Below, piece by piece: positions 13,940-41,367 of a stretch of DNA of 64,000 nt; positions within the stretch are counted from its first letter, which is position 1, and each line of letters begins with the position of its first letter. The notes under the pieces are model-generated. The model was not told the DNA's origin, did no database searches, and saw only the letters and a program-made list of their open reading frames with translations. Both the position numbers and the translations under genes were made by a program. The stretch is taken from positions 248,001 through 312,000 of the forward strand of contig NZ_CP100351.1 in assembly GCF_024204645.1 (NCBI RefSeq), given 5' to 3'. The DNA is from Desulfomicrobium sp. ZS1. Lineage in GTDB: Bacteria > Desulfobacterota > Desulfovibrionia > Desulfovibrionales > Desulfomicrobiaceae.

Positions 13940-14209
13940 ATGTCGAAGAACATTTATGTCGGAAACCTGCCCTGGAGTGCCACCGAGCAGGACGTGGAAA
14001 CGCTGTTCGCAACCTACGGCCAGGTTGCAAACGTAAAACTCATTTCCGACCGTGAGACAGGCAGAGCCCGCGGATTTGGTTTTGTGGAAATGGAGAGCGG
14101 CGCTGAAGAAGCCATCGCCGCCCTGGACGGCGCCGATTACGGCGGACGTTCCCTGAAGGTCAACGAAGCCCGTCCCCGTCCCGAGCGTGAACGCCGGCCC
14201 AGATGGTAG
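13940..14209 (+). CDS. Small RRM-type RNA-binding protein
   Basis: The 89-residue protein is a single RNA-recognition motif. RNP2 is IYVGNLPW (residues 4-11) and RNP1 is ARGFGFVEM near residue 42, followed by a short basic tail RPRPERERRPRW. Such single-RRM proteins are common in cyanobacteria and deltaproteobacteria, where they are linked to cold or stress RNA metabolism. Start ATG 13940 follows AGGAG by about 11 bases. The long untranslated leader is typical of cold-responsive genes, but no regulatory fold was identified. A strong terminator follows directly. Confidence 0.9.
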   Translation: MSKNIYVGNLPWSATEQDVETLFATYGQVANVKLISDRETGRARGFGFVEMESGAEEAIAALDGADYGGRSLKVNEARPRPERERRPRW

Positions 14210-14228
14210 TCGCGTCGATCTGAGCCTT

Positions 14229-14259
14229 AAAAAAACCCTGCCTGGCAGGGTTTTTTTTT
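14229..14259. terminator. Bidirectional intrinsic terminator
   Basis: A run of seven A, CCCTGC-CTG-GCAGGG, then nine T. The T-tract ends the RRM transcript on the plus strand. The A-run acts as T-tract for the RND operon arriving on the minus strand. Confidence 0.9.
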
Positions 14260-14276
14260 GTCCGGCGGGCAGGGCG

Positions 14277-14456
14277 TTACTGGTCCTTTCCGGGCTCCGG
14301 GCCTGCATCCTCGTTTTCCTCTTCCGCCGGAAGAGGGTGCGGCACGCCTCAGGGGCGGCCTTTCATCAGACGTTCGCCGCTGCCCACCCCGTCCAGCCAG
14401 AACCAGCCCAGCGCTCCGGCCGTGGCGGCCAGCACAATCAGTACTCCAAGCTCCAC
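14277..14456 (-). CDS. Tiny membrane protein at the end of the RND operon; candidate selenoprotein (in-frame UGA)
   Basis: A GTG start nine bases after the RND pump stop, with AAGGAGG in front, opens a frame encoding MELGVLIVLAATAGALGWFW..., one clear transmembrane helix. The frame meets TGA at 14351-14349 after 35 residues (...LMKGRP), then continues in the same phase for 23 more codons (GVPHPLPAEEENEDAGPEPG..., acidic) to TAA. Twelve bases after the TGA lies a perfect 8-bp hairpin with loop GGC, which fits bacterial SECIS spacing and resembles the hairpin behind the UGA of the Hdr-like gene at 40048. So the product is either 35 residues or a 59-residue selenoprotein. Its position recalls small RND partners such as AcrZ, but I recognise no family. 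Confidence 0.5.
14318..14336 (-). other. SECIS-like hairpin behind the in-frame UGA
   Basis: On the minus strand CCTCTTCC-GGC-GGAAGAGG, an 8-bp perfect stem with a 3-nt loop. The first loop G is 21 bases after the UGA. Bacterial SECIS elements need a G among the first loop bases at roughly 16-37 bases from the UGA. Confidence 0.45.
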
Positions 14457-14465
14457 AACGCCTCC

Positions 14466-17400
14466 TTATTTGACCAGGGAGCGCCCGAAGCGCTTCAGGT
14501 CTTCCAGAATCATGTACAGGGACGGCACGATTCCCAAGGTGATGAAGGTCGAGAACACGATGCCGAATCCCAGCGACAGGGCCATGGGGATGAGGAACCG
14601 GGCCTGCCGGGATGTTTCCCAGATCATGGGCGCCAGCCCGCCAAAGGTCGTCACTGTGGTCAGCAGGATGGGGCGGAAGCGCTGCAAGCTGGCCTGGTGA
14701 ATGGAGGACAGGGCCGAATGCCCCAGACGGCGCTTGCCGTTGGCGCAGTCGATGAGCACCAGCGAGGCGTTGACCACCACCCCGGACAGGGCCACGATGC
14801 CGAAAAGCGAGACCAGGCTCAGGCTGTAGCCCATGAGCAGATGCCCGAAAATGGCGCCGACCACGCCGAACGGAATGCTGGTCATGATAATGAGGGGCTG
14901 CGCGTAGCTGCGCAGGGGGATGGCCAGCAGGGCGAAGATGCACAGGCTGCCCATGCCAAGCCCCAGCAAGAGCGCCCCGACCCCCTCTTTTATGTCGGCC
15001 TGCTTGCCTTCGAAGCTGAATTCCAGGCCCTGGTAGCGGTCCTGCAATCGCGGCAGGAAGTTGTCCCTGACGGAATTGATGATCGAGGCGGCTTCGGACG
15101 GAGGCGTCACGTCGGCGGTCACGGAGATGATGCGACGGCCATTGCGCCGCTCGATGCTGGTATAGGAATGTCCTTTGCTTACGTCCGCCACCTCGCGCAG
15201 CAGCACGCTTTTTCCGGCCGGAGTGCGCACCAGGAAGTCCTCGATATTCTGCAAGGAGATGCGTTCGTCCTCGGGTAGGCGGACCATGACCTTTATTTCA
15301 TTGCGGCCGCGCTGCTGGCGTAGGGCTTCCGCTCCGTAGAAGGCTGCGCGGATCTGGCGGGCCACGTCCTGGGAGGTCAGGCCCAGGCTGCGGCCTTCCG
15401 GACGGATGCGGAAATCGAGCTGGGTCTTTCCGGCGGAGAATCCGTCGTCGATATCCGAAACCTGGGCATAGGAGCCCAGCTCCTTGGCCAGATCCTCTCC
15501 CGCCTTTTCCAGAATCTGCGTCGAGCGGTGCGAAAGTTCGATGGTCAGAGCCGCGCCCGAACCCGGTCCGCCGCGATCCGATTCGAATTTGAGGTACTCG
15601 GCTCCGGCGATGTCGCCGACGCGCTCCCGCCACCGGTTGGTGAATTCCGTCGTGGACAGGGTGCGTTGTTCGGGCGGGGTCAGAAAGACGCGCACCGAAC
15701 CCTGATGCCCGCCGGAACTTGTGCCGACCTGGGAAAAGATGCCTTCGACCAGTTCCGCTCCGCCGTTTTCACGGGCCAGGTCGCCTGCGATGCGGACCAT
15801 GCGCTTGATGGCCGCCTCCGTGCGGGCCACCGGCGATCCGAAGGGCATGGCCAGTTCGACATAGGCGTAATCCGACTCGACCTTGGGGAACATGACGATG
15901 CCCATGCGCCCGCTGGCCACGTATCCCACCGTGGCGACAAGGACGGCCATTGCCACGGCCAGGGTCAGGTAGCGCAGGCGAATGGTCAGCATGAGCAGGG
16001 GCGAGACGACGGTGTTCACCATGTGCATGAACCAGGTGCTGAATTTGCCCTGCCATTTGTGCACGAAGGACAGCCAGGACCTGCCTCCTGACTTGAGGTG
16101 TCCGAGGTGGGAAGGCAGCACGAAGAGGCTCTCCACCAGCGAGATGATAAAGACGCTGACGACCACCGCCGGAAGTACGCCGAAAACCCGGCCCAGCACG
16201 CCGGGCACGAAGAGCATGGGCAAGAAGGCGACGACGTTGGTCAGCACCGAGAAGGTCACGGGCATGACCACCTCTCTGGCTCCGTTGGTGGCGGCCTTGA
16301 GGGGGGAGAGTCCCTGTTCCCTGTATTGGTATATGTTTTCGCCGACCACGATGGCGTCATCGACCACGATGCCGAGCGTGATGATGAAGGCGAACATGGA
16401 TATCATATTGAAACTCACCCCGAGTCCGGGAAGGATCAGAAACGACCCCATGATGGAAATGGGGATGCCCATGCTGACCCAGAAAGCGAGCCGGATTTCC
16501 AGGAACAGCGCCAGCAGGACAAAGACCAGACACAGGCCCATGAGGCCGTTGCGGGTCAAAAGGTCCATGCGTTGGCGAAAGATGTCGGAACTGTCGTTGC
16601 GCTTGGCGATGTGCACGCCCGGAGGCAGTATCTGGTTCAGGCGCTCCATGTGGCGCTTGACGGCGTCGGACACGGAGATGGGCGTCTGGTCGCCGACGCG
16701 GTAGATGTCGAGCAGGATGGCGGGCTGGTTGTTGTACAGGGCGTAGAGATCCGTGTCCTCGAATCCGTCGGTGATGCGGCCGAGGTCTTCCAGGCGGACC
16801 ACGGATCCTTCCGGAGTGCTGATGATGGGCAGCCCTGCGAATTCCTTGCCCAGTTCGCGGCGGTCCTTGACCCGAACCAGGATTTCCCCCTGCGCGGTCT
16901 TGACGCTGCCTCCGGGCAGTTCCAGTGCCGAGTTTCCGATGATTTCCGCCACTTCGCGCAGGGTCAGGCCATGGGCGCGCAGGGTGTCCTGGGAAATTTC
17001 AATGCCGATTTCAAGATCCCGGGCGCCGCTGAGGTCGATGCGGGTGATCTCCGGGTCTTGCAGGAGTTCGTCGCGCACGGTCTCGGCCATTTCGCGCAGC
17101 ACACTCTCCTGCAGGTCCCCGTAAACGGCGATGGACAGGGTCCGGCGCTGGTTCGAGGCGACGACCACTTTCGGGGTCTCGGTGTCTTCCGGAAAGGAGG
17201 AGATGCGGTCGACCTCGCCTTTGACGTCCTGGGCCAGGCGTTCCATGTCGGTCCCTTCCAGGGCCTCGATGGTGACCGTGCCCACGCCTTCCGTGGACGA
17301 GGACGTGACCTTTTTGATCCCGTCCAGCCCCGTGACCCGCTCCTCGATGGCCAGAACAATGCCCTTCTCGACCTCTTCCGGGCTGGCCCCGGGATAGGCT

Positions 17401-28316: not shown

Positions 28317-29723
28317 TCATGCATTTCTTTCCACGTCTCTTTCCTTGAGCAGGGCATAGATTCTCGGTCTGGACAGCCCGGAGAGTCGGCAGGCCGTTGG
28401 AATGTCGCCCTTGCTGATCAGCATCAGATTTTTCAGATACCATGTCTCCAGTTCGGCCATGTGCTTTTCGCGGTATTCCCGGAGGGTGGGAAAGGCGTCT
28501 TTGTCCGTGATGGGCGGCGTTCTTTCCTCAAGCACGGGAAGCTCCGCGACCTGCAGTCGCGCGATACTGGCGCGGATGTTTCGGGACAGATGCTGGGGGT
28601 AGAGGATGGGTTCGGTTCCGGCGCGGACCACGGCCTGGTCCAGGGCATTGACCAGTTCGCGGATGTTTCCCGGCCATTCGTACTGCATCAGCGTGTCCAG
28701 AAAATCCGGTGAAAAACCCTTGTTGTCGATGTTCAGGCGCTTGCAGGCGCGGCGGACGAAGTGGCAGATGAGATCGTTCAGGTCATCGAGCAGGTCGCGC
28801 AGGGGGGAAAGCTCAAGGCGGATTCCGCGCAGGCGGTAGAACAGGTCCCGCCGAAAGGTGTCGGCGCGCACCATGGCCTCAAGGTCACGGTTTGTCGCTG
28901 CTACCAGTCTGAAATTACTGGTGATTTCTTTCGATCCCCCCACGGGTCTGAAGCTGCGCCCTTCCAGCACGCGCAAGAATACTTTTTGCGTGCTCACGGG
29001 CAGTTCGCCCACCTCGTCCAGAAACAATGTCCCGCCGTCGGCCTGTTTGACGAGTCCTACGGAGCGATTGTCCGCGCTGGTGAACGCCCCCCGTTCATGG
29101 CCAAAAAGCATGCTTTCCACCAGCGTTTCGGGTAGAGCCGCGCAATCGACGACCACGAAAGGTTTGCCCGTGCGCGAGCTGTTGGCGTGGATGGCGCGGG
29201 CAAAGAGCTCCTTGCCGGTGCCCGTCTCGCCGGTGATGAGTACGTTTACGTCCGTGGATGCAGCCTGGGCCACGATGTCCAGGCAGGAGTTGAGCAGGCG
29301 GCTGTTGCCGACAATGCCTTCGCGCCGCAGGGAGACGGGCGCGCATTTGGCCGGGCGTTCGAGGTGATACTCCAAGGCCCTGTCCGCCAGAACCAAGAGA
29401 CGCTGCATGTTCACCGGCTTGGGCATGAAGTTCCAGGCCCCGCCACGGATCGCGGCCTCGGCCGCGTCGGGGTCGCGGCTTTTGGACATGACGATGATTT
29501 CCGGTCGCGACGGCACCTCGCGCAGAGTGGCCAGGAAGTCCAAGCTGTTCTTGCCGCTGGCCTCATCGCCAAGCAGGACCAGGGAAAATTCGCCTACGTG
29601 CAGCATGGCCAGACCCTTGGAGAGGGTCGTGCTGTGGGCCGCATGCAGGTTGTTCTTGGCCATTTCCGCCATCAGCAATTGGCAAAAAGCCATATCCCCA
29701 TCAATAATCAGAATGTTGCTCAT
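28317..29723 (-). CDS. Sigma54-dependent transcriptional regulator (NtrC-like), divergent from the hdr operon
   Basis: The 468-residue protein has an N-terminal receiver-like domain, an AAA+ domain (Walker A GETGTGKE, GAFTSA in place of GAFTGA, Walker B LFLDEVGE) and a C-terminal Fis-type helix-turn-helix (ACRLSGLSRPRIYALLKE). The receiver is atypical: the acidic pocket reads IIDGD, and the phospho-acceptor strand is LVLLGDEASGKNSL, where the normal aspartate column holds G52 unless the alignment slips one residue to D53. Start ATG 29723 follows GGGAG. No kinase gene is adjacent. It is the obvious candidate to control the hdr operon on the other strand. Confidence 0.9.
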   Translation of the reverse strand: MSNILIIDGDMAFCQLLMAEMAKNNLHAAHSTTLSKGLAMLHVGEFSLVLLGDEASGKNSLDFLATLREVPSRPEIIVMSKSRDPDAAEAAIRGGAWNFMPKPVNMQRLLVLADRALEYHLERPAKCAPVSLRREGIVGNSRLLNSCLDIVAQAASTDVNVLITGETGTGKELFARAIHANSSRTGKPFVVVDCAALPETLVESMLFGHERGAFTSADNRSVGLVKQADGGTLFLDEVGELPVSTQKVFLRVLEGRSFRPVGGSKEITSNFRLVAATNRDLEAMVRADTFRRDLFYRLRGIRLELSPLRDLLDDLNDLICHFVRRACKRLNIDNKGFSPDFLDTLMQYEWPGNIRELVNALDQAVVRAGTEPILYPQHLSRNIRASIARLQVAELPVLEERTPPITDKDAFPTLREYREKHMAELETWYLKNLMLISKGDIPTACRLSGLSRPRIYALLKERDVERNA

Positions 29724-29751
29724 GAGGGCTCCCACGGTGTTGTCTTGCTGC

Positions 29752-30027: not shown

Positions 30028-30104
30028 GGCGTTCTGGAGCGGAGTTCTTTTACATCACTCATATGGTTTGAAATGTAATTTTGATTCCGGCGTTTGGAGC
30101 GGAG
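30028..30104. repeat. Two direct repeats in the hdr operon leader
   Basis: GGCGTTCTGGAGCGGAG (30028-30044) and GGCGTTTGGAGCGGAG (30089-30104), start to start 61 bp apart (close to six helical turns). They precede the OrfA-like gene and could be protein-binding sites. Confidence 0.55.
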
Positions 30105-30177
30105 ATTCATTTTTCGCTTTTCCAGACCAGGAGTCAATGACCTGATGCCGGGGTGCCCCTGCGAGGAGGAGTTGAGG

Positions 30178-30447
30178 ATGAAACGCAAATGGGACGCAAG
30201 GACCAAGGCGCGTATCGTGCTCGAAGGGCTCATGGGCGGGTGTGTGAACGAGATCTGCCGAAATCATGAGCTGCGGCCGGGTCTGTACTATAAATGGCGA
30301 GGGCATTTTCTGGAGCATTGCCACCTTGTTTTCGAGGAGCAGCCCAGGGCGCCAAGCCAATCGGACCTGGCGGTCGAGAACGAGAAACTCAAGCGTTTGG
30401 TGGGTGAATTGACCTTGGAACTCAACAAGGGCGGAAGTCTTCGCTGA
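30178..30447 (+). CDS. Lone IS3-family OrfA-like helix-turn-helix protein at the head of the hdr operon
   Basis: The 89-residue protein looks like the OrfA (InsE-type) DNA-binding subunit of IS3 transposases: KRKWDARTKARIVLEGLMGG, then helix-turn-helix ICRNHELRPGLYYKWRGHFLEH, then a leucine-rich coiled coil NEKLKRLVGELTLELNK. No OrfB (integrase core) follows and no inverted ends were found. GAGGAGGAGTTGAGG precedes the ATG, and only 22 bp separate it from hdrA, so it is cotranscribed with the hdr genes. It is either a remnant or a domesticated regulator. Confidence 0.75.
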   Translation: MKRKWDARTKARIVLEGLMGGCVNEICRNHELRPGLYYKWRGHFLEHCHLVFEEQPRAPSQSDLAVENEKLKRLVGELTLELNKGGSLR

Positions 30448-30469: not shown

Positions 30470-32479
30470 ATGGCCAGAAGGATCGGGGTGTATGTCTGTC
30501 ATTGCGGTTCGAACATCGCGGGCAAGGTCGATTGTCCGGACGTAGCCGCTTTTGCCAGAGGACTCAAAAACGTCACCGTTGCGCGCGACTATCAGTTCAT
30601 GTGTTCGGACCCCGGACAGGATATGATCATCCGGGATATTCACGAGCATGGGCTGGACCGGGTGGTGGTAGCCTCCTGCTCGCCGCGTCTGCACGAAAAG
30701 ACATTTCAGAAGGCCTGCGCCAGGGCCGGGCTCAATCCGTACCTCATGCAGCATTGCTGCATCCGCGAGCACTGCTCATGGGTAACCGCGGACAAGGCCG
30801 AGGCCACGGCCAAGGCCAAGCACATCGTCGAGGCCGCGGTGCTCAGGGTGCGCAGGCATCAGGAACTCCACTCCCGTGAAGTGGCCGTGGTGCCCGACGT
30901 CATGGTCGTGGGCGCGGGCATCGCCGGCATCCAGGCCGCGCTTGACGTTGCCCGTTCCGGACACCGCGTCATCTTGGTCGAGAAGTCGCCGTCCATTGGC
31001 GGGCACATGGCGCAATTCGACAAGACCTTTCCCACCCTGGACTGCGCGGCCTGCATCTCCACTCCGAAAATGGTGGCCGTGGCCCAGGAACCGAACATTG
31101 AGCTCCTGACTTGGAGCGAGGTCGAGGAGGTCACGGGTTTTGTCGGCAACTACACGGTCACGGTGCGGCGCAAGGCGCGTTATGTGCGTGAGGACATCTG
31201 CACCGGGTGCGGGGCGTGCCTGGAAAAATGCCCGACCAAGGTGGTCAGTGAATTCGAGGAAGGCCTCGGCATGCGCCGGGCCATCTACCGCAATTCTCCT
31301 CAGGCCGTGCCCAGCACCCCGGTCATCGACGCCGAGCACTGCAAGATGCTCACCAAGGGCAAATGCGGCATCTGCCAGAAGACTTGTCCCACCGGAGCCA
31401 TCGATTTCACCCAGCAGGACCGCAAAGAGGTCTATCAAGTGGGCAGCGTGATCCTGGCCACGGGATACGACACCATGGATCCCACGCCCATGACCGAATA
31501 CGGTTACGGCCGTTATCCGGAGGTCTACACCGCCCTGCAGTTCGAACGCCTGAACAATGCGGTGGGGCCTACCGGCGGCAAGATTCTGATGAAGAACGGA
31601 CAGGCGCCGGAAAGCGTGGCCATCATTCACTGCGTGGGCAGCCGTGACACGAATTATCACGAATACTGCTCCCGCACCTGCTGCATGTACGCCCTCAAGT
31701 ATGACCACCTGATAAAAGACAAGGTCGGACACTCTACGCAAATCTATAATTTCTACATCGACATGCGTTGTTTTGGCAAAGGGTACGAGGAATTCTACCG
31801 CCGTGTTCAGGACGAAGGGGTGACCTTCGTGCGCGGCAGACCTTCCGAAGTCGTGCAGGAAAACGGCAAGCTGGTCGTGGTGGGCGAGGATACCCTGCTC
31901 GGGATGAGGCTGCGCGTGCCCGTGGATATGGTCATCCTGTGCACAGCCATGGAGGCTCGAGCCGATACCACGGAAGTGGCGCGCGTCTTCGGCGTGTCCC
32001 AGGGCCGGGACGGATTTTTCCTTGAGGAGCATCCCAAGCTTGGTCCCGTCTCCACGGCCTCGGACGGCATTTACCTGGCCGGAACCTGTCAGGGCCCGAA
32101 AGACATTCCCGACGCCGTGGCCCACGCCGCCGGTGGCGCGGCGCAGGCTCTGGCCTTGGCTGCGCGCGGAGTGGTGTCCATCTCCCCCACGACCTCCTGG
32201 ATCAACCCCGATATCTGCGTGGGCTGCAAGATGTGCATCGGCCTGTGCCCGTACTCGGCCATCGAGTTCGACGAGCGCCGCCACATCGCGGTCATCAACG
32301 AGGCCATGTGCAAGGGCTGCGGCAGCTGCGCCGGGCATTGCCCCAGCGGCGCGGCCCAGATCAAGCATTTCCGCCAGGTGCAGGTTTTCAACGAGATAGA
32401 CGGTCTGCTGGACCGTAAACCGGACATAATGGCCCTGATTGGAGACATCTACCAAACCGCGAACCGAGCAGGGGCGTGA
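30470..32479 (+). CDS. hdrA: HdrA-type FAD/iron-sulfur flavoprotein (first copy)
   Basis: The 669-residue protein has the full HdrA layout. The N-terminal domain carries IGVYVCHCGSNI and SCSPRLHEKTF. The FAD-binding domain has VVGAGIAGIQAALD (near residue 147) and the cluster-binding DCAACISTPKM. Inserted 4Fe-4S motifs CTGCGACLEKCP (about 244) and CGICQKTCP (about 299) follow, then the second FAD half with GIYLAGTCQGPKDIPDAV. The C-terminus has two more ferredoxin motifs, CVGCKMCIGLCP (about 583) and CKGCGSCAGHCP (about 613). In methanogens and other anaerobes HdrA holds the bifurcating FAD. Here it is followed directly by mvhD, as in other Hdr complexes. Confidence 0.93.
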   Translation: MARRIGVYVCHCGSNIAGKVDCPDVAAFARGLKNVTVARDYQFMCSDPGQDMIIRDIHEHGLDRVVVASCSPRLHEKTFQKACARAGLNPYLMQHCCIREHCSWVTADKAEATAKAKHIVEAAVLRVRRHQELHSREVAVVPDVMVVGAGIAGIQAALDVARSGHRVILVEKSPSIGGHMAQFDKTFPTLDCAACISTPKMVAVAQEPNIELLTWSEVEEVTGFVGNYTVTVRRKARYVREDICTGCGACLEKCPTKVVSEFEEGLGMRRAIYRNSPQAVPSTPVIDAEHCKMLTKGKCGICQKTCPTGAIDFTQQDRKEVYQVGSVILATGYDTMDPTPMTEYGYGRYPEVYTALQFERLNNAVGPTGGKILMKNGQAPESVAIIHCVGSRDTNYHEYCSRTCCMYALKYDHLIKDKVGHSTQIYNFYIDMRCFGKGYEEFYRRVQDEGVTFVRGRPSEVVQENGKLVVVGEDTLLGMRLRVPVDMVILCTAMEARADTTEVARVFGVSQGRDGFFLEEHPKLGPVSTASDGIYLAGTCQGPKDIPDAVAHAAGGAAQALALAARGVVSISPTTSWINPDICVGCKMCIGLCPYSAIEFDERRHIAVINEAMCKGCGSCAGHCPSGAAQIKHFRQVQVFNEIDGLLDRKPDIMALIGDIYQTANRAGA

Positions 32480-32489
32480 GGAGGATTGC

Positions 32490-32915
32490 ATGAACCAGGA
32501 ATTTGAACCCGCCATTTTGGCATTTGTCTGCAACTGGTGCACCTACACCGCCGCCGATCTGGCCGGGACCTCGCGCATGGTGCAACAGCCCAACGTACGC
32601 CTGGTGCGCATGATGTGCACGGGCATGGTCGATCCCAAATATGTCATCAAGGCCCTTTTGTCCGGGGCCGACGGGGTGCTGGTCAGCGGCTGCCATCCCG
32701 GCGACTGCCACTACATCAACGGCAACTACAAGGCCCGGCGGCGGGTCAAGCTCTTGAACGAGATCCTGCCGCAGTTCGGCATCGACCAGCGGAGGTTGCG
32801 CCTGACCTGGGTCGGAGCCAGCGAGGGCAACGAGTTTGCGGCCACGGTCAATAATTTCATCAATGAAATACGAGAGCTCGGGCCGCTGGATGTGCGCGGC
32901 ATGGCAGCCCTTTAA
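32490..32915 (+). CDS. mvhD: MvhD/FrhD-type 2Fe-2S electron-transfer subunit
   Basis: The 141-residue protein passes electrons into HdrA. Its five conserved cysteines appear in FVCNWCTYTAADLAG, RMMCTGMVD and SGCHPGDCHYINGNYKA, the normal MvhD pattern. GAGGATTGC precedes ATG 32490. In methanogens MvhD links a hydrogenase or formate dehydrogenase to HdrA; here no such catalytic subunit is encoded alongside, and the FrhB-like protein next door may be the partner. Confidence 0.92.
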   Translation: MNQEFEPAILAFVCNWCTYTAADLAGTSRMVQQPNVRLVRMMCTGMVDPKYVIKALLSGADGVLVSGCHPGDCHYINGNYKARRRVKLLNEILPQFGIDQRRLRLTWVGASEGNEFAATVNNFINEIRELGPLDVRGMAAL

Positions 32916-32935: not shown

Positions 32936-34078
32936 ATGGCCACCACTGTACGGATTGAAGTCGGCGAAAACGGCCCGGTGCCGGCCCTGCAGGATTTTTT
33001 CAAGAAATTGCTGGCGGACGAGTCCCTGTCCGGGATCATGGTCCCCGTGCACCTTTTCGGGGGCGGCATGCCCATGCCGACCCTGGTTACCGATCCGGCC
33101 CAGCTGGACCGGGCCGACCCATTGGCTCCGGCCTTTCCTATGAATAGCGCCAAACTTGTTTCGCGTCTGAGCAAGGGCTCGGCCGGAGAGCGTTTCGCCG
33201 TGGTCATGCGCCCTTGCGAGATCCGGGCCTTCGTGGAGCTGGTCAAGCTCAACCAGGGCTCTCTGGAAGAGGTCATCCTCATCGGCATGGATTGTCCGGG
33301 AGCCTACGACAACATGCATTACCGCGAATTTCTGGGCGAGCGCGAGCCCATGGCCGCCAGCGCCGATTTCCACAAGGCCCTGGCCGAGGGTCGCAAACCT
33401 GCCGCCGTGGATCTGGCCGGGGCTTGCCGGGTTTGCGAGCATCCCACGCCGCAAGGCACGGACATAGTTGTCGGTCTTTTCGGGGGCGATATTTTATCAG
33501 GCATCCAGATCATGGCTGCCAGTCCTCGCGGCGAGGCCCTGCTCGGGGCCATGGGGCTGCCGGCGCAGGAACCGGACGGGAAGCGCGAGGCCGCTGTCGC
33601 CGCCCTGGTCAGTGAACGCGAGGTCGCGCGCGACGCCATGTTCAAGGATGTGGAGGAGCGAACCTCGACCCTGGAGAAATTGGCCCAATATCTGGGTTCC
33701 TGCGTGAACTGCTATAACTGCCGGGTGGCCTGCCCGGTCTGCTACTGCAAGGAGTGCGTCTTCAACACCGACGTCTTCGAGCACAAGCCCTGGCAATACC
33801 TGGACTGGGCCAAGCGCAAGGGCAGCCTCAAGCTGCCCACGGATACGGTCTTTTACCACCTGACGCGCATGGCGCACATGAGCACGGCCTGCGTCGGTTG
33901 CGGCCAATGCTCCAACGCGTGCCCCAACGGCGTGGAGGTCGTGGAGCTTTTCCGCACCGTGGCTGCTCGCACGCAGAAGAGTTTTGATTACGAGCCTGGC
34001 CTGAGTCTGGACCAGGCCCCGCCCCTGACGGTGTTCAGGGAGGATGAATATCAGGATACGGTTTCGCACCTGGCTTGA
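32936..34078 (+). CDS. FrhB/FdhB-like flavo-iron-sulfur subunit with C-terminal ferredoxin domain
   Basis: The 380-residue protein resembles the beta subunits of F420-dependent hydrogenase and formate dehydrogenase: MRPCEIRAFVELVKLNQGSLEEVILIGMDCPGAYD is the FAD/F420 domain signature. The C-terminal third has the cysteine cluster CVNCYNCRVACPVCYCKEC and the ferredoxin motif CVGCGQCSNACPNG. Family members exchange electrons between a flavin and a soluble carrier. In a sulfate reducer the carrier is unlikely to be F420 and could be ferredoxin or NAD(P)H; that is inference. It lies 20 bp after mvhD. Confidence 0.85.
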   Translation: MATTVRIEVGENGPVPALQDFFKKLLADESLSGIMVPVHLFGGGMPMPTLVTDPAQLDRADPLAPAFPMNSAKLVSRLSKGSAGERFAVVMRPCEIRAFVELVKLNQGSLEEVILIGMDCPGAYDNMHYREFLGEREPMAASADFHKALAEGRKPAAVDLAGACRVCEHPTPQGTDIVVGLFGGDILSGIQIMAASPRGEALLGAMGLPAQEPDGKREAAVAALVSEREVARDAMFKDVEERTSTLEKLAQYLGSCVNCYNCRVACPVCYCKECVFNTDVFEHKPWQYLDWAKRKGSLKLPTDTVFYHLTRMAHMSTACVGCGQCSNACPNGVEVVELFRTVAARTQKSFDYEPGLSLDQAPPLTVFREDEYQDTVSHLA

Positions 34079-34094
34079 ATCCGAGGAGGAGGCA

Positions 34095-37000
34095 ATGAGG
34101 AAACAATACGGCGCGTTGGTGGTGGGCGCGGGCATCGCCGGAATTCGGGCGGCTCTTGATTTGGCCGTGACCGGACACAAGGTGGCCCTGATCGACAAAC
34201 GCCCCAGTCATGGCGGCATCTTAAGCCAACTGGATTACCAGTTTCCCTCGGATCACTGCGGCATGTGCCGCATGCTTCCGCTTATGAGTCGGGATGCGTC
34301 CAGCCAGTTTTGCCTGCGAAAGGGCATGTTTCATGAAAACATAGATTTGATGCTCTCAACGGAGCTGGCCTCTCTGGAGGGCGAGCCGGGCAAGTTTTTT
34401 GTCAGCCTGAGCCGCCGTTCTCCGCTGGTCGATCCGCACAAGTGCGTCAGTTGCGGGAAGTGCTCCGAGGTCTGTCCGGTCAAGGTTCCGAGCGAATTCA
34501 ACGCCGGGCTGACACAGCGTTCGGCCGTGTATCTGCCCGTGCCCCACGCCATACCCAACCATTACGTTCTGGACCTGGACAACTGCATTCGCTGCTGGAA
34601 ATGCCACGAGGCCTGTCCGACCGGGGCCATTGATCTTAAATTCGAAGAGCGGGCGCAGTTCGGCATTCTGGTTGCGGACGAGGATGAACAGACCCGCTTG
34701 ACGGTGCGGGAAAGCCTTGAGCACCTGCATTTCCCGGTCTTCGAGGCCGCGAGTGGTCAGGAGGCCTTGGATTTGCTTGAGTCCGACGCGCAGATCAATT
34801 TCGTGCTGGTCGGGCTTAACCTGCAGGGCGTGGACGCCCTGCGCGTCATGGCCCGCGCCAAGGAACTCAGTCCCGGCATGCCCGTGTCCGTCCTGACTGC
34901 CGCCGGAGAAGAGGAGGCTGCCGCCGAATTGATCCGGCGTGGAGCGCGGGATCAGTTCATGAAGCCGCTCTCGTCCAAGAAATTCGTGCCCTGGCTGGAT
35001 AAGCACTACATGCGCATCATGTCCGACACCACGGAGGAGTTGCAGGTCAGCGCGGTGATTTTGGCCGGGGGCTTTGACTGCTATCATCCCGACATGGACC
35101 CGAACGGAGGACGCGATATCTGGGGATACGGCCACCCGGCCGTGCTTACCGCCGTGGAGTTCGAGCGCCTGCTGAGCGGCACCGGGCCCACGGGCGGCAA
35201 GCTTAACCGCCCGGGCGACGGCAAGCCGGTGCAAAGGATCGCCTGGATCCAGTGCGTGGGCTCGCGCGATGTGGGCAAAAACGCCAACTACTGTTCCTCG
35301 GTCTGCTGCATGTTTTCCATGAAGGAGGCCATGCTGGCCAAGAAGGTCACAAACGGGGCGGTCGACGCCACCATTTTCTACATGGACATGCGTACCTTCG
35401 GCAAAGGCTGGGACGATTACCGTCTGCGGGCCGTGGAGCAGGGCGTGCATTTCGTGCGCAACCGGCCGCACTCCGTGGTGCCTGCCGCCGAGGGCGGCGG
35501 GGTGGTGCTTGAGTCCTTGAACGACGACGGTACGCGCCGTTCGGAAGAGTTCGACATGGTCGTCCTGGCCGTGGGCGCAAGACCTCCCAAGGGCATGGAT
35601 CAGTTCGCGGCCACGGTGGGCATCGAGACCAACGAGTGGGGTTTTTGCAAAACTCAGCCCTACGCTCCGGAGCGGACCAGCCGGGTCGGCGTGTTCGCGG
35701 CCGGTTCCTTCGGCGAGCCGAGGGACATTTCCGAATCCGTGATGCAGGCCGGAGCCGCATCCGAAGCCGCCGCGCGCATGATCAAGATCTACGACGTGTT
35801 GGGGCCGGCTCCCGCGCCGCCCGAGCCGGAGTATCCCGATGTTTCCCGCGAGCCGGTGCGTACGCTGATTGCCGTGTGCACTTCCTGCCCGACGCTGGGC
35901 AAGGCGGTGAATCTGGAAGAACTGGCGCGCACCGTGGGTCGGGTTCATTCGGTCGGCACCGTGCTGCCCGTGTTCCAGGCCTGCACTGAAGCCGGCTGGA
36001 AGCAGATCCTTGAAACAGTCAAGCAGAAAAAGCCCAACCGTATCCTTATCGGGGCCTGTATGCCCTACGCCTACATCCCGCGCTTGAAAGAGATGGCCCG
36101 CACCGTGGGGCTCAATCCGGCGCTCATGGATGTGGTTGACGTGCACACTCCGACCTTTAACGGTCAGGATGCCGTGGAAGTGGCCCGTGAGATATTCTCC
36201 ACCCTGTCCATGGCCGTGGCCAAGTTGCAGGGAGTCGATCCCACGCCGCCGGATGTGCTCATGGACGTGTCGCGCTCCGCATTGGTGGTGGGTGGCGGTC
36301 TGGCCGGTCTGACCGCGTCCATGGCCATCGCCGACCAGGGTTTCGGGGTCTGTCTGGTGGAAGCCGAGGAGGAACTCGGCGGCATAGCCCGGCGCCTGTA
36401 CACCCAACTCGATGGCACGGATCCGCGTAAATATATGGAGGACCTCGTCGCCCAGGTGGAGAAGCACCCGCGCATCAAGGTCTTCAAGGACGCTCGCGTG
36501 GTCCTGTCCCGTGGCAGCGCCGGACGCTTCCGCTCCGCCATCAGCGGCGACAGCGGCATCTTCCCGCTGGAGCACGGGGTGACCATCCTGGCCACCGGCG
36601 GGCATGAAGCCAAGATCTACGAAAGCGGGTTCTGCGTGCACAAGACCGTCATGACCCACTTCGGGCTGGAGGAGAAACTGGCCACGGGCGCGCTCGATGT
36701 GGGCAGCCTCGGCGCGGTGGCCATGATCCAGTGCTGGCGGTCCCGCAAGGAAGGCGAGCGCAACTATTGCAGCCGCATCTGCTGTCCCGAGATGCTCAAG
36801 AACGTGCTGACCATGAAGGAGCGCAAGCCCGAATTGCCCATCTATGTCTTTTACCGTGACATCATGGCCCAGGGATTCCTGGAGAGTTACTACACCCAGG
36901 CGCGCAAGGCCGGAGTGATCTTCATCCGCTATGACCTGGAGAATCCGCCCAAGGTGACTTTTGTCGAGGGTAAGCCTGTGATCCGGGCCCTGGATCCGAT

Positions 37001-37526
37001 CCTGGGTGCTGAAATAGAGGTGCATGCCGACATTCTGTCTCTGTCGAGCGGGGTGGAGCCCAATGATGTGGACGATCTGGTGGAGATCTTCGGGGTCAAG
37101 ACCGACCACAACGGGTTCTTCCAGGAGGCCGACAGCAAGTGGCGGCCCGTGGATTTCCTGAAGCAGGGCGTCTATATGTGCGGGCTGGCTCATTCGCCCC
37201 GGCGCATGGCCGAAACCGTGGCTTCGGCCAAGGCAGCGGCCCAGCAGTCCCTGCGCATTCTCTCCGCGGGTAAGGTGGCCCGGGAGACCCTGGTGGCTAC
37301 GGTCAGGCCGTCCCTGTGCTCCCTCTGCCAGGCCTGCGTGGCGGCTTGCCCCTACGGGGCGCGCACCGTGGACCTCGAAAACGAGCTCATACTGGTGGAC
37401 GAGATGCTCTGTCAGGGCTGCGGTGCCTGCGCGGCGGTCTGTCCCAACAGCGCAACAGTGATCAAGGGCTTCCATGACGGACCGATGATGGCGGTAATCG
37501 ACGCCGCTCTGGAACAATTGGCCTAG
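34095..37526 (+). CDS. Giant double HdrA-like flavoprotein with embedded receiver-like domain
   Basis: The 1143-residue protein contains two HdrA-type modules. Module 1 starts YGALVVGAGIAGIRAALDLA, has the cluster site DHCGMCRMLP and ferredoxin motifs CVSCGKCSEVCP and CIRCWKCHEACP. At about residues 189-305 it is interrupted by a response-regulator fold (FGILVADEDEQTRLTVRESL to FMKPLSSKKFVPWLDKHY). There the phospho-acceptor aspartate is G240 (VLVGLNLQG), while the Thr and Lys positions are kept. FAD module 1 then resumes (about 310-600). Next comes an HdrA-like cysteine domain (AVCTSCPTLGKAVNLEEL), FAD module 2 (LVVGGGLAGLTASMAIADQG) and a terminal 2x4Fe-4S ferredoxin (CSLCQACVAACP, CQGCGACAAVCP). 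ATG 34095 follows GGAGGAGGCA. Confidence 0.88.
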   Translation: MRKQYGALVVGAGIAGIRAALDLAVTGHKVALIDKRPSHGGILSQLDYQFPSDHCGMCRMLPLMSRDASSQFCLRKGMFHENIDLMLSTELASLEGEPGKFFVSLSRRSPLVDPHKCVSCGKCSEVCPVKVPSEFNAGLTQRSAVYLPVPHAIPNHYVLDLDNCIRCWKCHEACPTGAIDLKFEERAQFGILVADEDEQTRLTVRESLEHLHFPVFEAASGQEALDLLESDAQINFVLVGLNLQGVDALRVMARAKELSPGMPVSVLTAAGEEEAAAELIRRGARDQFMKPLSSKKFVPWLDKHYMRIMSDTTEELQVSAVILAGGFDCYHPDMDPNGGRDIWGYGHPAVLTAVEFERLLSGTGPTGGKLNRPGDGKPVQRIAWIQCVGSRDVGKNANYCSSVCCMFSMKEAMLAKKVTNGAVDATIFYMDMRTFGKGWDDYRLRAVEQGVHFVRNRPHSVVPAAEGGGVVLESLNDDGTRRSEEFDMVVLAVGARPPKGMDQFAATVGIETNEWGFCKTQPYAPERTSRVGVFAAGSFGEPRDISESVMQAGAASEAAARMIKIYDVLGPAPAPPEPEYPDVSREPVRTLIAVCTSCPTLGKAVNLEELARTVGRVHSVGTVLPVFQACTEAGWKQILETVKQKKPNRILIGACMPYAYIPRLKEMARTVGLNPALMDVVDVHTPTFNGQDAVEVAREIFSTLSMAVAKLQGVDPTPPDVLMDVSRSALVVGGGLAGLTASMAIADQGFGVCLVEAEEELGGIARRLYTQLDGTDPRKYMEDLVAQVEKHPRIKVFKDARVVLSRGSAGRFRSAISGDSGIFPLEHGVTILATGGHEAKIYESGFCVHKTVMTHFGLEEKLATGALDVGSLGAVAMIQCWRSRKEGERNYCSRICCPEMLKNVLTMKERKPELPIYVFYRDIMAQGFLESYYTQARKAGVIFIRYDLENPPKVTFVEGKPVIRALDPILGAEIEVHADILSLSSGVEPNDVDDLVEIFGVKTDHNGFFQEADSKWRPVDFLKQGVYMCGLAHSPRRMAETVASAKAAAQQSLRILSAGKVARETLVATVRPSLCSLCQACVAACPYGARTVDLENELILVDEMLCQGCGACAAVCPNSATVIKGFHDGPMMAVIDAALEQLA

Positions 37527-37544: not shown

Positions 37545-38111
37545 ATGAACCAAACGCAAACAAAACCATGGAGCCCGGATCCCGTGACCCGGGAAATTCT
37601 TGAAGAGCTGCGCAGCGAGCTTGGGGCCTGCATGCAGTGCGGAACGTGTACCGCGTCCTGTCCCAACGGCTTCGCCATGGACGTAACGCCCCGGCAGATG
37701 TGGCGCATGGTGCAGTTCGGAATGTTGGACCAGATTCTTGAGAGCAAGACCTTCTGGATGTGCTCGTCCTGCTACATGTGCACCCTGCGCTGCCCGCGCG
37801 GGCTGAAGCTGACGCGGGCCATGGGCGCCCTGAAGCGCCTGGCCAGGGCGCGGGGGACCTGGAAGATCCGCAAGAACAGCGCATTCTACGACGCATTCAT
37901 GGACAACGTGGAGAAGTACGGGCGCGTGCAGGAGACGAGCCTCATGCCCGGATACTTCCTGAAAAGCCGCGATCCGCTCCTGCCGTTGCACTACCTGCCT
38001 CTGGGGGTGCGCATGATGAAGGCCGGCAAGCTGCACGTGCCAAGCAGTGCCCAGAAGGGGCGCCTCAAGAAACTCTTCGCCAAGGTGCGTGAGATGGAGG
38101 AGGAATCATGA
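37545..38111 (+). CDS. hdrC: HdrC-type 2x[4Fe-4S] protein
   Basis: The 188-residue protein has the two HdrC ferredoxin motifs, CMQCGTCTASCPNG and CSSCYMCTLRCPRG, about 55 residues apart. It wires HdrA to the HdrB catalytic subunit. Start ATG 37545 follows GGGAAGGTGGATC. The stop overlaps the hdrB start (ATGA). Confidence 0.92.
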   Translation: MNQTQTKPWSPDPVTREILEELRSELGACMQCGTCTASCPNGFAMDVTPRQMWRMVQFGMLDQILESKTFWMCSSCYMCTLRCPRGLKLTRAMGALKRLARARGTWKIRKNSAFYDAFMDNVEKYGRVQETSLMPGYFLKSRDPLLPLHYLPLGVRMMKAGKLHVPSSAQKGRLKKLFAKVREMEEES

Positions 38112-39025
38112 AATACGCCTACTATCCAGGCTGCTCGCTGCAGGAAAGCGCCCAGGAGTTCGACGTGTCGGTGCGGGCCGTCATGGCCGCCCTGGGAGTG
38201 GAACTCGTCGATATACCGGACTGGACCTGCTGTGGGGCCAGCGCGGCCGAACCGGTCAGCGCCCTCATGAATTACGCTCTTCCGGCCCGCAATCTTGCCC
38301 TGGCCGAAAGGGATCTGGCCGGGCTTGATGTGCTGGCCCCATGCAGCGCCTGCTATCTCAATCTCTTGAAGGTCAACCGTGAAGTCGTCGGTCACAAGGA
38401 ACTGCACGCCCGGGTCAACGAGGCCCTTGGCGCGATGGATCTGAATTACCGGGGCACCGTCGGGGTGCGGCACATTCTGGACGTTCTGGTCAACGACATC
38501 GGGCTTGATGCCATAAAAGAGAAGGTCGTCACCGACATGGGCGGGATGCGGGTGGCTCCGTACTACGGCTGTCAGATCCTGCGCCCTTACGAAGTTTTCG
38601 ATGATCCGCGCAAACCCGTGACCATGGACAATGTGCTGAGCGCCCTGGGGGCCAAGCCCCAGCCGTGGGACATGGGTAACAAGTGCTGCGGTGCCTCGCT
38701 CATGGTCACCCATCCGGAGGTGGCCATGCATTCCGTGGCCGCCATTCTGGAGGCCGCCGAAGGTGTTGACGCCGTGGCCACGGTCTGCCCGCTGTGCCAG
38801 ATGAACCTGGAGGCCTATCAGCACGACTCCGCAGCCGGGGGCCATTACGTGCCGATTTTGTACTTGACCCAGCTCATGGGCCTCGCGTTCGGGCTGGAAG
38901 AGCCTTCCGTACTCTTGGATAAGAACATGAGCATGGACGGGAGCATGCGCGCCGGGATCAGATCCCGGACCTGGCGGCACGAACCGCCAGGCGAAGGCGA
39001 CGAGACGCTTGCCCACGAAATTTGA
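38108..39025 (+). CDS. hdrB: HdrB-type CCG-domain subunit
   Basis: The 305-residue protein carries two CCG domains (YYPGCSLQESAQEF...TCCGASAAE...CSACY and YYGCQILRPYEVF...KCCGASLMV...CPLCQMNL), which in methanogen HdrB bind two noncubane 4Fe-4S clusters and reduce a heterodisulfide. The natural disulfide substrate in sulfate reducers is not settled (DsrC trisulfide and others have been proposed). The last 40 residues (KNMSMDGSMRAGIRS...) are not part of the usual family. Confidence 0.92.
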   Translation: MKYAYYPGCSLQESAQEFDVSVRAVMAALGVELVDIPDWTCCGASAAEPVSALMNYALPARNLALAERDLAGLDVLAPCSACYLNLLKVNREVVGHKELHARVNEALGAMDLNYRGTVGVRHILDVLVNDIGLDAIKEKVVTDMGGMRVAPYYGCQILRPYEVFDDPRKPVTMDNVLSALGAKPQPWDMGNKCCGASLMVTHPEVAMHSVAAILEAAEGVDAVATVCPLCQMNLEAYQHDSAAGGHYVPILYLTQLMGLAFGLEEPSVLLDKNMSMDGSMRAGIRSRTWRHEPPGEGDETLAHEI

Positions 39026-39046: not shown

Positions 39047-39961
39047 ATGTTCAAGGACATCATCGTAGGCGTGACGCCCAGCGGCGTGGATGCATGCGCG
39101 GTTGAATCCGCGGTGGGTTTTGCCAAGAAGTTTGAATCCAACCTGTATCTGGTCCACGTGGCCGGCATGGAGCAGGGCTGGGGTTCCATCGAGACCCTGG
39201 AGGCCTCGGGCGAGACGGCCCGGCTGGAGGCGCGCATTCGGGAGATGTACGCATCCCTGCTGGCCGATCTGCCTAATGCCAAGGTGCAGGTGGTGGCCGG
39301 AATTCCGCATAACGAGCTCCTGCGCTTGGCGCGCAAGAAGGACACCGATCTGGTGGTCATGGGGCCGCACACCAAGGAATACGAGGAGAAGCGGGCTCAG
39401 ATGTGGGGCATGGCCGGCAGCACCTTGGAGCGGGTCAGCCAGAAGGCGCGCTGTCCAGTCATGATCGTGCACCGCGCTGTGGAGTGTAAGGACCCGGCAT
39501 TTGCCAACATCCTCGTGGCCACGGACTTTTCCGAGCAGTCCGAATGCGCTGTCAGCTACGGCGGGCAGATGGTGCGGCAGTACAAGGCCAAGCTCACTCT
39601 CATGAATGTCAGCGAAACCTCCACGGATTCGCCGCAGGGCCGCGCCGAGATCGAGGCAAGGTTGCAAACCGAATACGGCGACCGGCTGCAGGGCATCGAC
39701 AACTGTGTCTACGCTGGGCGCTTCGGGCGGCCGGCCATGGAGATCCTGAACATGGCCACCCAGATCGGCGCGGATCTGATCATCATGGCCCACCACTCCA
39801 ACGCCGACGACCCGGAAGAGGCTTTCCTCGGTTCCACGGTGGTCCAGGTCTCGGTCAACGCGCCCTGTCCGACCATGAGCGTCAATCGTCACTTCGACCT
39901 GCGTTGCGGCCTGATGTACGATCAGACCGGCCAGGTGGTTAATGTCGCGGCTACGGTCTAG
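39047..39961 (+). CDS. Tandem universal stress (UspA) protein within the hdr operon
   Basis: The 304-residue protein has two Usp domains. Domain 1 (about 1-145) opens MFKDIIVGVTPSGVDACAVESAVGFA; domain 2 (about 150-290) opens ANILVATDFSEQSECAVSYGG. ATP-binding Usp proteins end with G-2X-G-9X-G(S/T). A related pattern is GPHTKEYEEKRAQMWGMAGSTLERV in domain 1, and AHHSNADDPEEAFLGSTVVQVS in domain 2. AAAGGGGGTAGTT precedes the ATG. Its place between hdrB and the selenocysteine Hdr gene argues for an accessory or sensing role in the complex. Confidence 0.9.
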   Translation: MFKDIIVGVTPSGVDACAVESAVGFAKKFESNLYLVHVAGMEQGWGSIETLEASGETARLEARIREMYASLLADLPNAKVQVVAGIPHNELLRLARKKDTDLVVMGPHTKEYEEKRAQMWGMAGSTLERVSQKARCPVMIVHRAVECKDPAFANILVATDFSEQSECAVSYGGQMVRQYKAKLTLMNVSETSTDSPQGRAEIEARLQTEYGDRLQGIDNCVYAGRFGRPAMEILNMATQIGADLIIMAHHSNADDPEEAFLGSTVVQVSVNAPCPTMSVNRHFDLRCGLMYDQTGQVVNVAATV

Positions 39962-40047
39962 TTCATCGCATGCGCGCAGAAGGCGCTGAAGTCTTCTGCG
40001 CGCGTTTTAAGCCTTTTGGAAAACCATTCATTTCGGGGGATACCGGG

Positions 40048-41367
40048 ATGTTGAACGGAAAGATAATCGAGCTTGGCCGCGGAAAAAGTTCCTTTCTGGA
40101 AACAGTCAGGGACATTCTGCCCGAGGGGGGGAACCTGAACATGTGTCTGACCTGCGGGGCATGTTCCTCCGGTTGCCCGGCTTCCGGCCTGGAAGACATG
40201 GACCCCCGCAAGTTTTTGCGCATGGCGGCGTTGGGCATGGACGAGGAAATCCTGTCCACGCCGTGGGTGTGGATGTGCACCATGTGTCAGCGTTGCATCT
40301 ATGTCTGTCCCATGAAGATAGACATTCCCCGTCTGGTCTACGAGGTTCGGGCGGCCTGGCCCAGGGAGACCCGCCCCAAGGGCATCATGGGTTCCTGCGA
40401 TATGGCCCTCAAGAATGAGAGCGGCAGCGCCATGGGCACCTCTCCGGATGATTTCGCCTTCGTGGTCGATGACATCCTGACGGAATGCCGGGAGGCGCAG
40501 CCCGAATTCGCGGACATGGAAGCACCCATCGACAAGGAGGGCGCGGAATTCTTTTTGAACCAGAATTCGCGCGAGCCCGTGACCGAACCCGACGAGCTCC
40601 TGCCCCTGTGGAAGATCCTGCATCTGGTCGGAGCGGACTGGACGTATGGTTCAAAGGGCTGGGCCGGGGAGAACTACTGCATGTTTCTGGCGGACAACCA
40701 GAGCTGGGAACGCCTGACCAAGCAATCGGCGGACAAGGCCAGCGAGCTGGGGTGCAAGGTCTTTCTCAACACGGAGTGAGGCCACGTCACGTACTCAGTC
40801 CGGGCCGGACTGGAAAAATTCGGTATAGAGCATCGTTTCGAAGTCAAAAACATTTACGAATATTATGCAAAATGGATCAGGGAGGGCAAACTCAAAGTCA
40901 ACTCCGACTGGAACAAGGATTTGAAGATAAAGTTCACCGTACAGGACCCGTGTCAGATCGTGCGAAAAAGCTACGGAGACGCCATCGCCGAAGACCTGCG
41001 TTTTGTCGTGAAATCGCTTGTCGGCGAGGAGAACTTCATCGACATGGTTCCGAACCGTTCCAATAATTATTGCTGCGGCGGAGGCGGAGGGTTCCTGCAA
41101 TCGGGCTTCAAGGATCAGCGCCTGGCCTACGGACAGACCAAGGACGAACAGATAAAGGCGACCAAAGCCGATTACTGCATCGCCGCCTGTCATAATTGCC
41201 ACGCCCAGATTCATGAACTGAGCGAACACTATGAAGGGCATTACGGCGTGGTTCACCTGTGGACGCTCATCTGCCTCTCGCTTGGCATCCTGGGGCCTAA
41301 CGAACGGACGTATCTGGGTGACGATTTGAAAGAGGTCAATGTTTTTCACCCCGAGATCGCGGTTTAG
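40048..41367 (+). CDS. HdrD/GlpC-type iron-sulfur oxidoreductase, selenocysteine-containing (UGA codon 244)
   Basis: The protein is 439 residues if TGA 40777-40779 is read as selenocysteine. The N-terminal half has two ferredoxin motifs, CLTCGACSSGCP and CTMCQRCIYVCP. The C-terminal half is a CCG domain: NTE-Sec-GHVTYS, then DPCQIVRKSYGD, NYCCGGGGGFLQSG and ACHNCHAQIHEL. The Sec sits where relatives have the Cys of ECGH, so it probably ligates or neighbours the catalytic cluster. The frame is continuous across the TGA, has no other start with a ribosome binding site behind it, and a SECIS-like hairpin lies at 40796-40812. An Fe-S oxidoreductase of GlpC type is among known bacterial selenoprotein families. 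Start ATG 40048 has GGGGGA upstream; the frame is open to 39970. Confidence 0.88.
40796..40812 (+). other. SECIS-like hairpin of the Hdr-type selenoprotein gene
   Basis: CAGTCCG-GGC-CGGACTG: a 7-bp perfect stem with loop GGC, the first loop G 24 bases after the UGA. A SelB-binding element at this place directs Sec insertion. Confidence 0.75.

Follow-up and report, generated by a model that had tools for sequence, protein, structure and literature searches.

The hdr operon described here lies in a window of 64,000 nucleotides (the whole stretch of Desulfomicrobium sp. ZS1 DNA that was analysed) and is read on the forward strand. It begins with the gene of a type I HdrA of 669 amino acids (30470..32479; assigned by Pfam, with the gene order kept in relatives), followed by those of an MvhD/FlpD electron-transfer protein (32490..32915; PF02662, E 7e-54), an FrhB/FdhB-like Fe-S protein (32936..34078; PF04432 and Fer4_8), a type II, two-module HdrA of 1143 amino acids (34095..37526; ORF, Pfam and PDB comparisons), HdrC (37545..38111; Pfam, adjoining HdrA in relatives too), HdrB with two CCG domains (38108..39025; PF02754) and a protein with a double universal-stress-protein domain (39047..39961; PF00582). 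A divergent gene on the reverse strand (28317..29735) encodes an NtrC-type regulator (REC-sigma54 AAA) whose receiver is without the acceptor Asp (D G G S K). Immediately 5' of the operon, an ORF on the forward strand (30094-30447) presents a transposase HTH (PF01527). On the same strand, 39970-41367 encodes an HdrD-like protein of 465 amino acids with one in-frame TGA at residue 270 (NTE-U-GH), which is probably read as selenocysteine. The genome contains a tRNA-Sec (86 bits); the hairpin after the TGA has an unremarkable energy (z -0.6) and matched no Rfam family. In another set of loci (L020-L038), the ORFs of receiver-less type II HdrA start abruptly at IISPKLVE or VISPKLVE, suggesting that the CxxC motif upstream contains an in-frame stop translated as selenocysteine.

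The start of the type II HdrA is fixed at the ATG 34095 because a Shine-Dalgarno sequence (GAGGAGG, 34083-34089) stands ahead of it. A 2x[4Fe-4S] ferredoxin interrupts the FAD domain of the protein, the arrangement that characterizes HdrA (5odc_A, E 1.6e-115, and a domain-by-domain alignment), and Pfam and PDB comparisons show the two thioredoxin-reductase-like FAD modules that define type II HdrA (PMC12054007). Module 1 starts with the first FAD/thioredoxin-reductase-like half (residues 1-108, 34095..34418), aligned with its GxGxxG glycines invariant, continues with the inserted 2x[4Fe-4S] ferredoxin domain (residues 109-186, 34419..34652; Pfam and alignment), whose eight cysteines are also invariant, and ends with the second FAD-domain half, placed by alignment (residues 313-565, 35031..35789). 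Module 2 comprises an HdrA N-terminal-type Fe-S domain (residues 588-722, 35856..36260) with C595, C630 and C655 conserved, and a FAD domain without ferredoxin insert (residues 726-1056, 36270..37262; Pfam and alignment). The protein finishes with a C-terminal 2x[4Fe-4S] ferredoxin (37290..37523; Pfam and conservation). Among 147 homologues, all the cluster ligands of module 1 are invariant, and so are E357 and K410 of the second FAD half, which correspond to E356 and K409 of the HdrA from M. thermolithotrophicus, located near FAD N5 and tied to bifurcation (PMC12054007). We infer from this set of residues that the protein is a probable electron-bifurcating flavoprotein. Within the genus, HdrA identity is 84-98%.

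Between the two FAD halves of module 1, residues 189-305 (34659..35009) constitute a CheY-like receiver domain. The initial annotation had proposed such a domain, situated between the ferredoxin insert and the second FAD half, and both the domain and its placement are borne out. PF00072 matches residues 191-297 (E 6e-15, 55.8 bits for a cut-off of 30.2), and among PDB sequences the domain matches the receivers of Spo0F, RssB and NtrC1. Modelled alone by AF2, residues 183-316 adopt with confidence the (beta-alpha)5 CheY fold (pLDDT 89.6, pTM 0.85), and the nearest solved folds obtained by Foldseek and VIA-align are those of NtrX and NtrC1, with Z about 20 and 1.4-1.7 Å over 127-129 residues. 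Residues 7-184 align to residues 146-313 of HdrA 5odc and residues 315-560 to its residues 318-562; about 130 residues replace about 4 of 5odc at the point where the inserted ferredoxin rejoins the first FAD domain. The position of the receiver relative to the FAD is deduced from this alignment: in a full-length AF2 model built with five sequences (mean pLDDT 42, pTM 0.28), the receiver alone is folded and the domain placement is not readable.

The five catalytic sites of the receiver, located by alignment, read D E G T K. They are the acid pair D195-E196, which is the metal-binding site of receivers (34677..34682), Gly240 at the phospho-acceptor position (34812..34814), where 105 of the 106 receivers from outside Desulfovibrionales have Asp, the switch Thr268 (34896..34898) and the conserved Lys290 (34962..34964). 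Receivers which keep the fold without at least one of the five catalytic residues are termed pseudo-receivers or aspartate-less receivers in PMC12632262 and PMC4395418, and the present domain is assigned to them on the basis of Gly240, a residue that had been correctly singled out at the start. Judged by these residues, the receiver cannot be phosphorylated, yet it is kept. The switch Thr and Lys had also been described as kept; they are indeed present in this protein, together with Asp195 and Glu196, but Thr268 is replaced by Ala in most congeners and is therefore not a conserved switch. Close relatives also differ at Glu196.

The distribution of this architecture was studied with a profile of the ferredoxin-receiver-FAD junction, in genomes all belonging to the phylum of Desulfomicrobium sp. 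ZS1. Among 348 genomes of the order, 64 have it, and these fall in 21 of 59 genera. A sample of 395 genomes from the phylum gave 11 carriers that are not members of the order, and in another class, that of genome G668, the counts are 134 out of 389 genomes and 69 out of 148 genera. This spread over the order, the phylum sample and a second class rules out the oddity of a single sequence. About half of the congeners do not have the insertion, and in 22 genomes with receiver-HdrA there are 3-11 matches to P0001 each, at most one of which contains the receiver. A tree built on residues 315-1142, with the receiver columns left out, grouped every HdrA that has the receiver into a single clade (support 100), which splits into two sister clades, Desulfovibrionales (100) and the rest (89). 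No receiver-less member appears inside the clade, and the three states need two label changes, which is the minimum; on this tree, the receiver was inserted once into HdrA. Receivers in general are catalytic, and for this reason the complete receiver is most simply the ancestral form.

The two sister clades differ in their active sites. All five catalytic residues are present in 105 of 106 distinct sequences outside Desulfovibrionales and in 0 of 63 inside; the only outside receiver with an acceptor Gly (DDGTK, locus L137 of genome G911) is close to a contig end. Similarly, all 100 full-length proteins from outside the order have Tyr as their aromatic switch residue at K-3, a position that varies inside. 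Outside, the mean frequency of the top residue is 0.73-0.82 in the receiver, 0.71 in the ferredoxin and 0.49 in alpha5 and the linker into the FAD domain (residues 294-312, 34974..35030). Inside, conservation is lowest in the receiver (0.51-0.60) and reaches 0.71 in the alpha5-linker, with W300, D302, K303, R307, S310 and D311 nearly fixed in Desulfovibrionales only. This displacement of conservation may mean that what was once a dynamic switch has turned into a structural or docking element of fixed shape. The receiver is also the fastest-evolving part of HdrA, with 36-45% identity to distant relatives compared with 46-86% for the flanks. Its dN/dS within the genus is 0.05-0.23, most flanks showing 0-0.15 and the N-terminal domain of module 2 up to 0.25; the receiver is relaxed relative to the rest of HdrA, yet under purifying selection. 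A decay of the receiver was rejected, the reading frame being intact and dN/dS well below 1.

The gene order adds a second difference between the clades. In operons with a complete receiver, the genes hdrA, mvhD, frhB-like, hdrA(REC), hdrC and hdrB are followed by histidine kinases, which are HAMP-PAS-PAS kinases and REC-kinase hybrids. Among the 72 loci outside the order with at least 4 kb of downstream sequence, 55 have a co-directional histidine kinase at most 5 kb downstream, versus 1 of 24 loci inside, and the value expected from the kinase density of six such genomes (about 39 Mb with 565 matches to HisKA) is about 3.6%. In 41 of the 55 kinase-bearing loci, the downstream region is without any receiver protein lacking a kinase domain, and in 63 of the 72 outside loci the stretch contains no sigma54 regulator. 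Because the kinases are located downstream, usually with no classical response regulator, HdrA is probably their output, and the complete-receiver loci give the impression of a dedicated two-component system that ends in HdrA. Three observations limit the strength of this link: in 17 of the 72 outside loci, no kinase is nearby and the active site is still kept; a receiver-less paralogue (G1061:C1:1976932-1979418) is followed at about 1.8 kb by a kinase match, which means that a kinase close to hdrA is not peculiar to the receiver paralogue; and with two sister clades, the co-occurrence of kinase and intact active site amounts in effect to a single deep event and not to many independent ones.

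In many Desulfovibrionales, a kinase and an NtrC-type regulator are encoded divergently upstream of the hdr operon. Every scored locus with an adjacent kinase has a complete NtrC receiver. The loci without the kinase have lost the NtrC acceptor, with the single exception of L107, which keeps the Asp. HdrA has the acceptor Gly in 11 loci without the kinase and 2 with it, and the acceptor Asp in 19 with the kinase and 4 without, counts which are not independent since the loci are related. In Desulfomicrobium sp. ZS1, both the NtrC-type regulator and HdrA have Gly at the acceptor position, and it appears that the whole hdr locus has been stripped of phospho-signalling.

What the analysis shows directly is the fold of the domain and where it is inserted, how it is distributed, which residues it keeps, the order of the genes and the selection that acts on it; phosphotransfer, gating, the role of the pseudo-receiver and bifurcation by the complex are inferred. 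We consider it fairly probable that the domain arose as a phosphorylatable control element of HdrA, served by its own kinases, which became a retained pseudo-receiver in Desulfovibrionales. The Hdr complex would be made of type I HdrA, MvhD, the FrhB-like protein, type II HdrA, HdrC and HdrB, and a receiver of NtrC-type fold would have entered HdrA in a single event, at the hinge between the end of the inserted ferredoxin and the FAD domain. Among the carriers outside the order, most would have their complete receiver phosphorylated by the histidine kinases of the operon; the phosphate would displace alpha4-beta5-alpha5 together with the linker, and this movement would reposition the ferredoxin arm or change its access to FAD, raising or lowering the flow of low-potential electrons. 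Desulfovibrionales have lost the phosphorylation chemistry of the receiver and the downstream kinase genes, and their alpha5-linker has become fixed; in the lineage of Desulfomicrobium sp. ZS1 the upstream NtrC-type partner has lost its Asp as well. The pseudo-receiver most likely acts without phosphate, as a rigid spacer or as a docking or allosteric module of the ferredoxin arm. To the broader proposal, a two-component system whose output is the Hdr bifurcating flavoenzyme, switched post-translationally in many Desulfobacterota and frozen to a pseudo-receiver in Desulfovibrionales, we give an even chance.

Other readings of the same data were considered. In the lineage of Desulfomicrobium sp. 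ZS1, the receiver might be a vestige, an inert spacer left after the loss of the kinase whose removal would disturb the FAD fold. The rapid divergence of the domain relative to its flanks, the degeneracy of every HdrA receiver site in Desulfovibrionales and that of the adjoining NtrC receiver are in line with this idea, but we judge it unlikely: the purifying selection and the newly conserved alpha5-linker, with its six fixed residues, argue against a decay of the pseudo-receiver, the frame is intact, and the clade of the tree has no member that has dispensed with the domain. A somewhat better case, although still a tentative one, can be made for a pseudo-receiver that senses a ligand, a redox change or a partner protein without phosphate and thereby gates HdrA. 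Regulation of this kind is discussed for pseudo-receivers in PMC12632262, four of the five catalytic positions are kept here (D195, E196, T268 and K290) and selection is purifying; against it, Thr268 and Glu196 vary in close relatives, and no ligand pocket was identified.

For the relatives outside the order, the operon kinases could serve distant regulators or the neighbouring REC-kinase hybrids instead of HdrA. In its full form, this explanation supposes that they phosphorylate only the hybrid or a distant transcription factor, and that the HdrA receiver is a phosphate sink, or a dock tethering a kinase that reads the redox state. Hybrid REC-HATPase proteins are indeed found in 49 of the 55 kinase-bearing loci, and a sink receiver would keep its residues too, but the fully conserved Asp, Thr, Lys and Tyr fit an output switch rather than mere docking, and we regard this explanation as improbable. 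Returning to the phosphorylatable control domain and its retained pseudo-receiver, the suggestion of the initial annotation that a signalling fold gates a bifurcating flavoprotein stands as regards the fold, which is real, shared by many genera and under purifying selection; gating itself is a plausible proposal. For metabolism and regulation joined in one chain, the strongest case is the sister clade with complete receivers, the protein described here being non-phosphorylatable. What had escaped that annotation is that the pseudo-receiver is a derived state and that phospho-control of HdrA is best supported in the relatives outside the order.

Compared with known systems, the protein resembles the archaeal type II HdrA of methane metabolism by its two thioredoxin-reductase-like FAD modules, its clustering with MvhD, an FdhB/FrhB-like protein and HdrBC, and the conservation of E356/K409; it differs by the receiver that ends the module 1 ferredoxin, which is not described for the archaeal proteins, and by the kinases which follow in relatives (PMC12054007). 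Type III HdrA, or HdrL, also has a foreign domain beside the inserted ferredoxin, but there it is a GltD redox domain bringing NAD(P)H, whereas here it is a signalling domain without cofactor (PMC12054007; PMC2702500). In the relatives, the first gene of the receiver-HdrA operon encodes an HdrA with an insert of this type III kind. By its described gene content, the Hdr locus VIII of Desulfobacterium autotrophicum HRM2 (hdrL/hdrA4, fdhB, hdrBC) resembles the complete-receiver operons, and the hdr loci of this organism include response regulator and kinase neighbours (PMC2702500); no receiver is mentioned there for HdrA4. As in the pseudo-receivers treated in PMC12632262 and PMC4395418, the acceptor Asp is missing; the searched passages of these papers name neither HdrA nor a similar flavin enzyme as a pseudo-receiver partner. 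The closest folds are those of the NtrC family, but the HdrA receiver is internal instead of N-terminal and has no sigma54 or DNA-binding output.

No description of an HdrA-receiver fusion was found in the freely accessible literature. To our knowledge, little is known about the control of flavin-based electron bifurcation beyond gene expression. If the proposed mechanism is true, a receiver at the ferredoxin arm and the kinases of the operon would let an environmental signal act directly on the redox branch point in sulfate reducers and organisms related to them. The presence in well over a hundred genomes of a complete receiver, usually beside its own sensor kinases, suggests a direct control of electron flow by signals. 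The two sister clades, with an intact or a degenerated receiver at the same site of the same enzyme, also offer a natural experiment on the role of pseudo-receivers, which is presented as an open question in PMC12632262.

Additional receiver proteins were observed around these operons. In four loci (L091, L092, L094 and L095), a conserved REC-HATPase protein of about 390 amino acids, with no recognised HisKA domain, is encoded downstream of hdrB and adjoins a HisKA kinase. In L093, the same operon encodes a universal stress protein (14207-15520) whose two Usp domains flank a receiver. Finally, a lone receiver of about 153 amino acids lies downstream of the operon in L100, L113 and L114, and in L115 a receiver shares one ORF with the USP.
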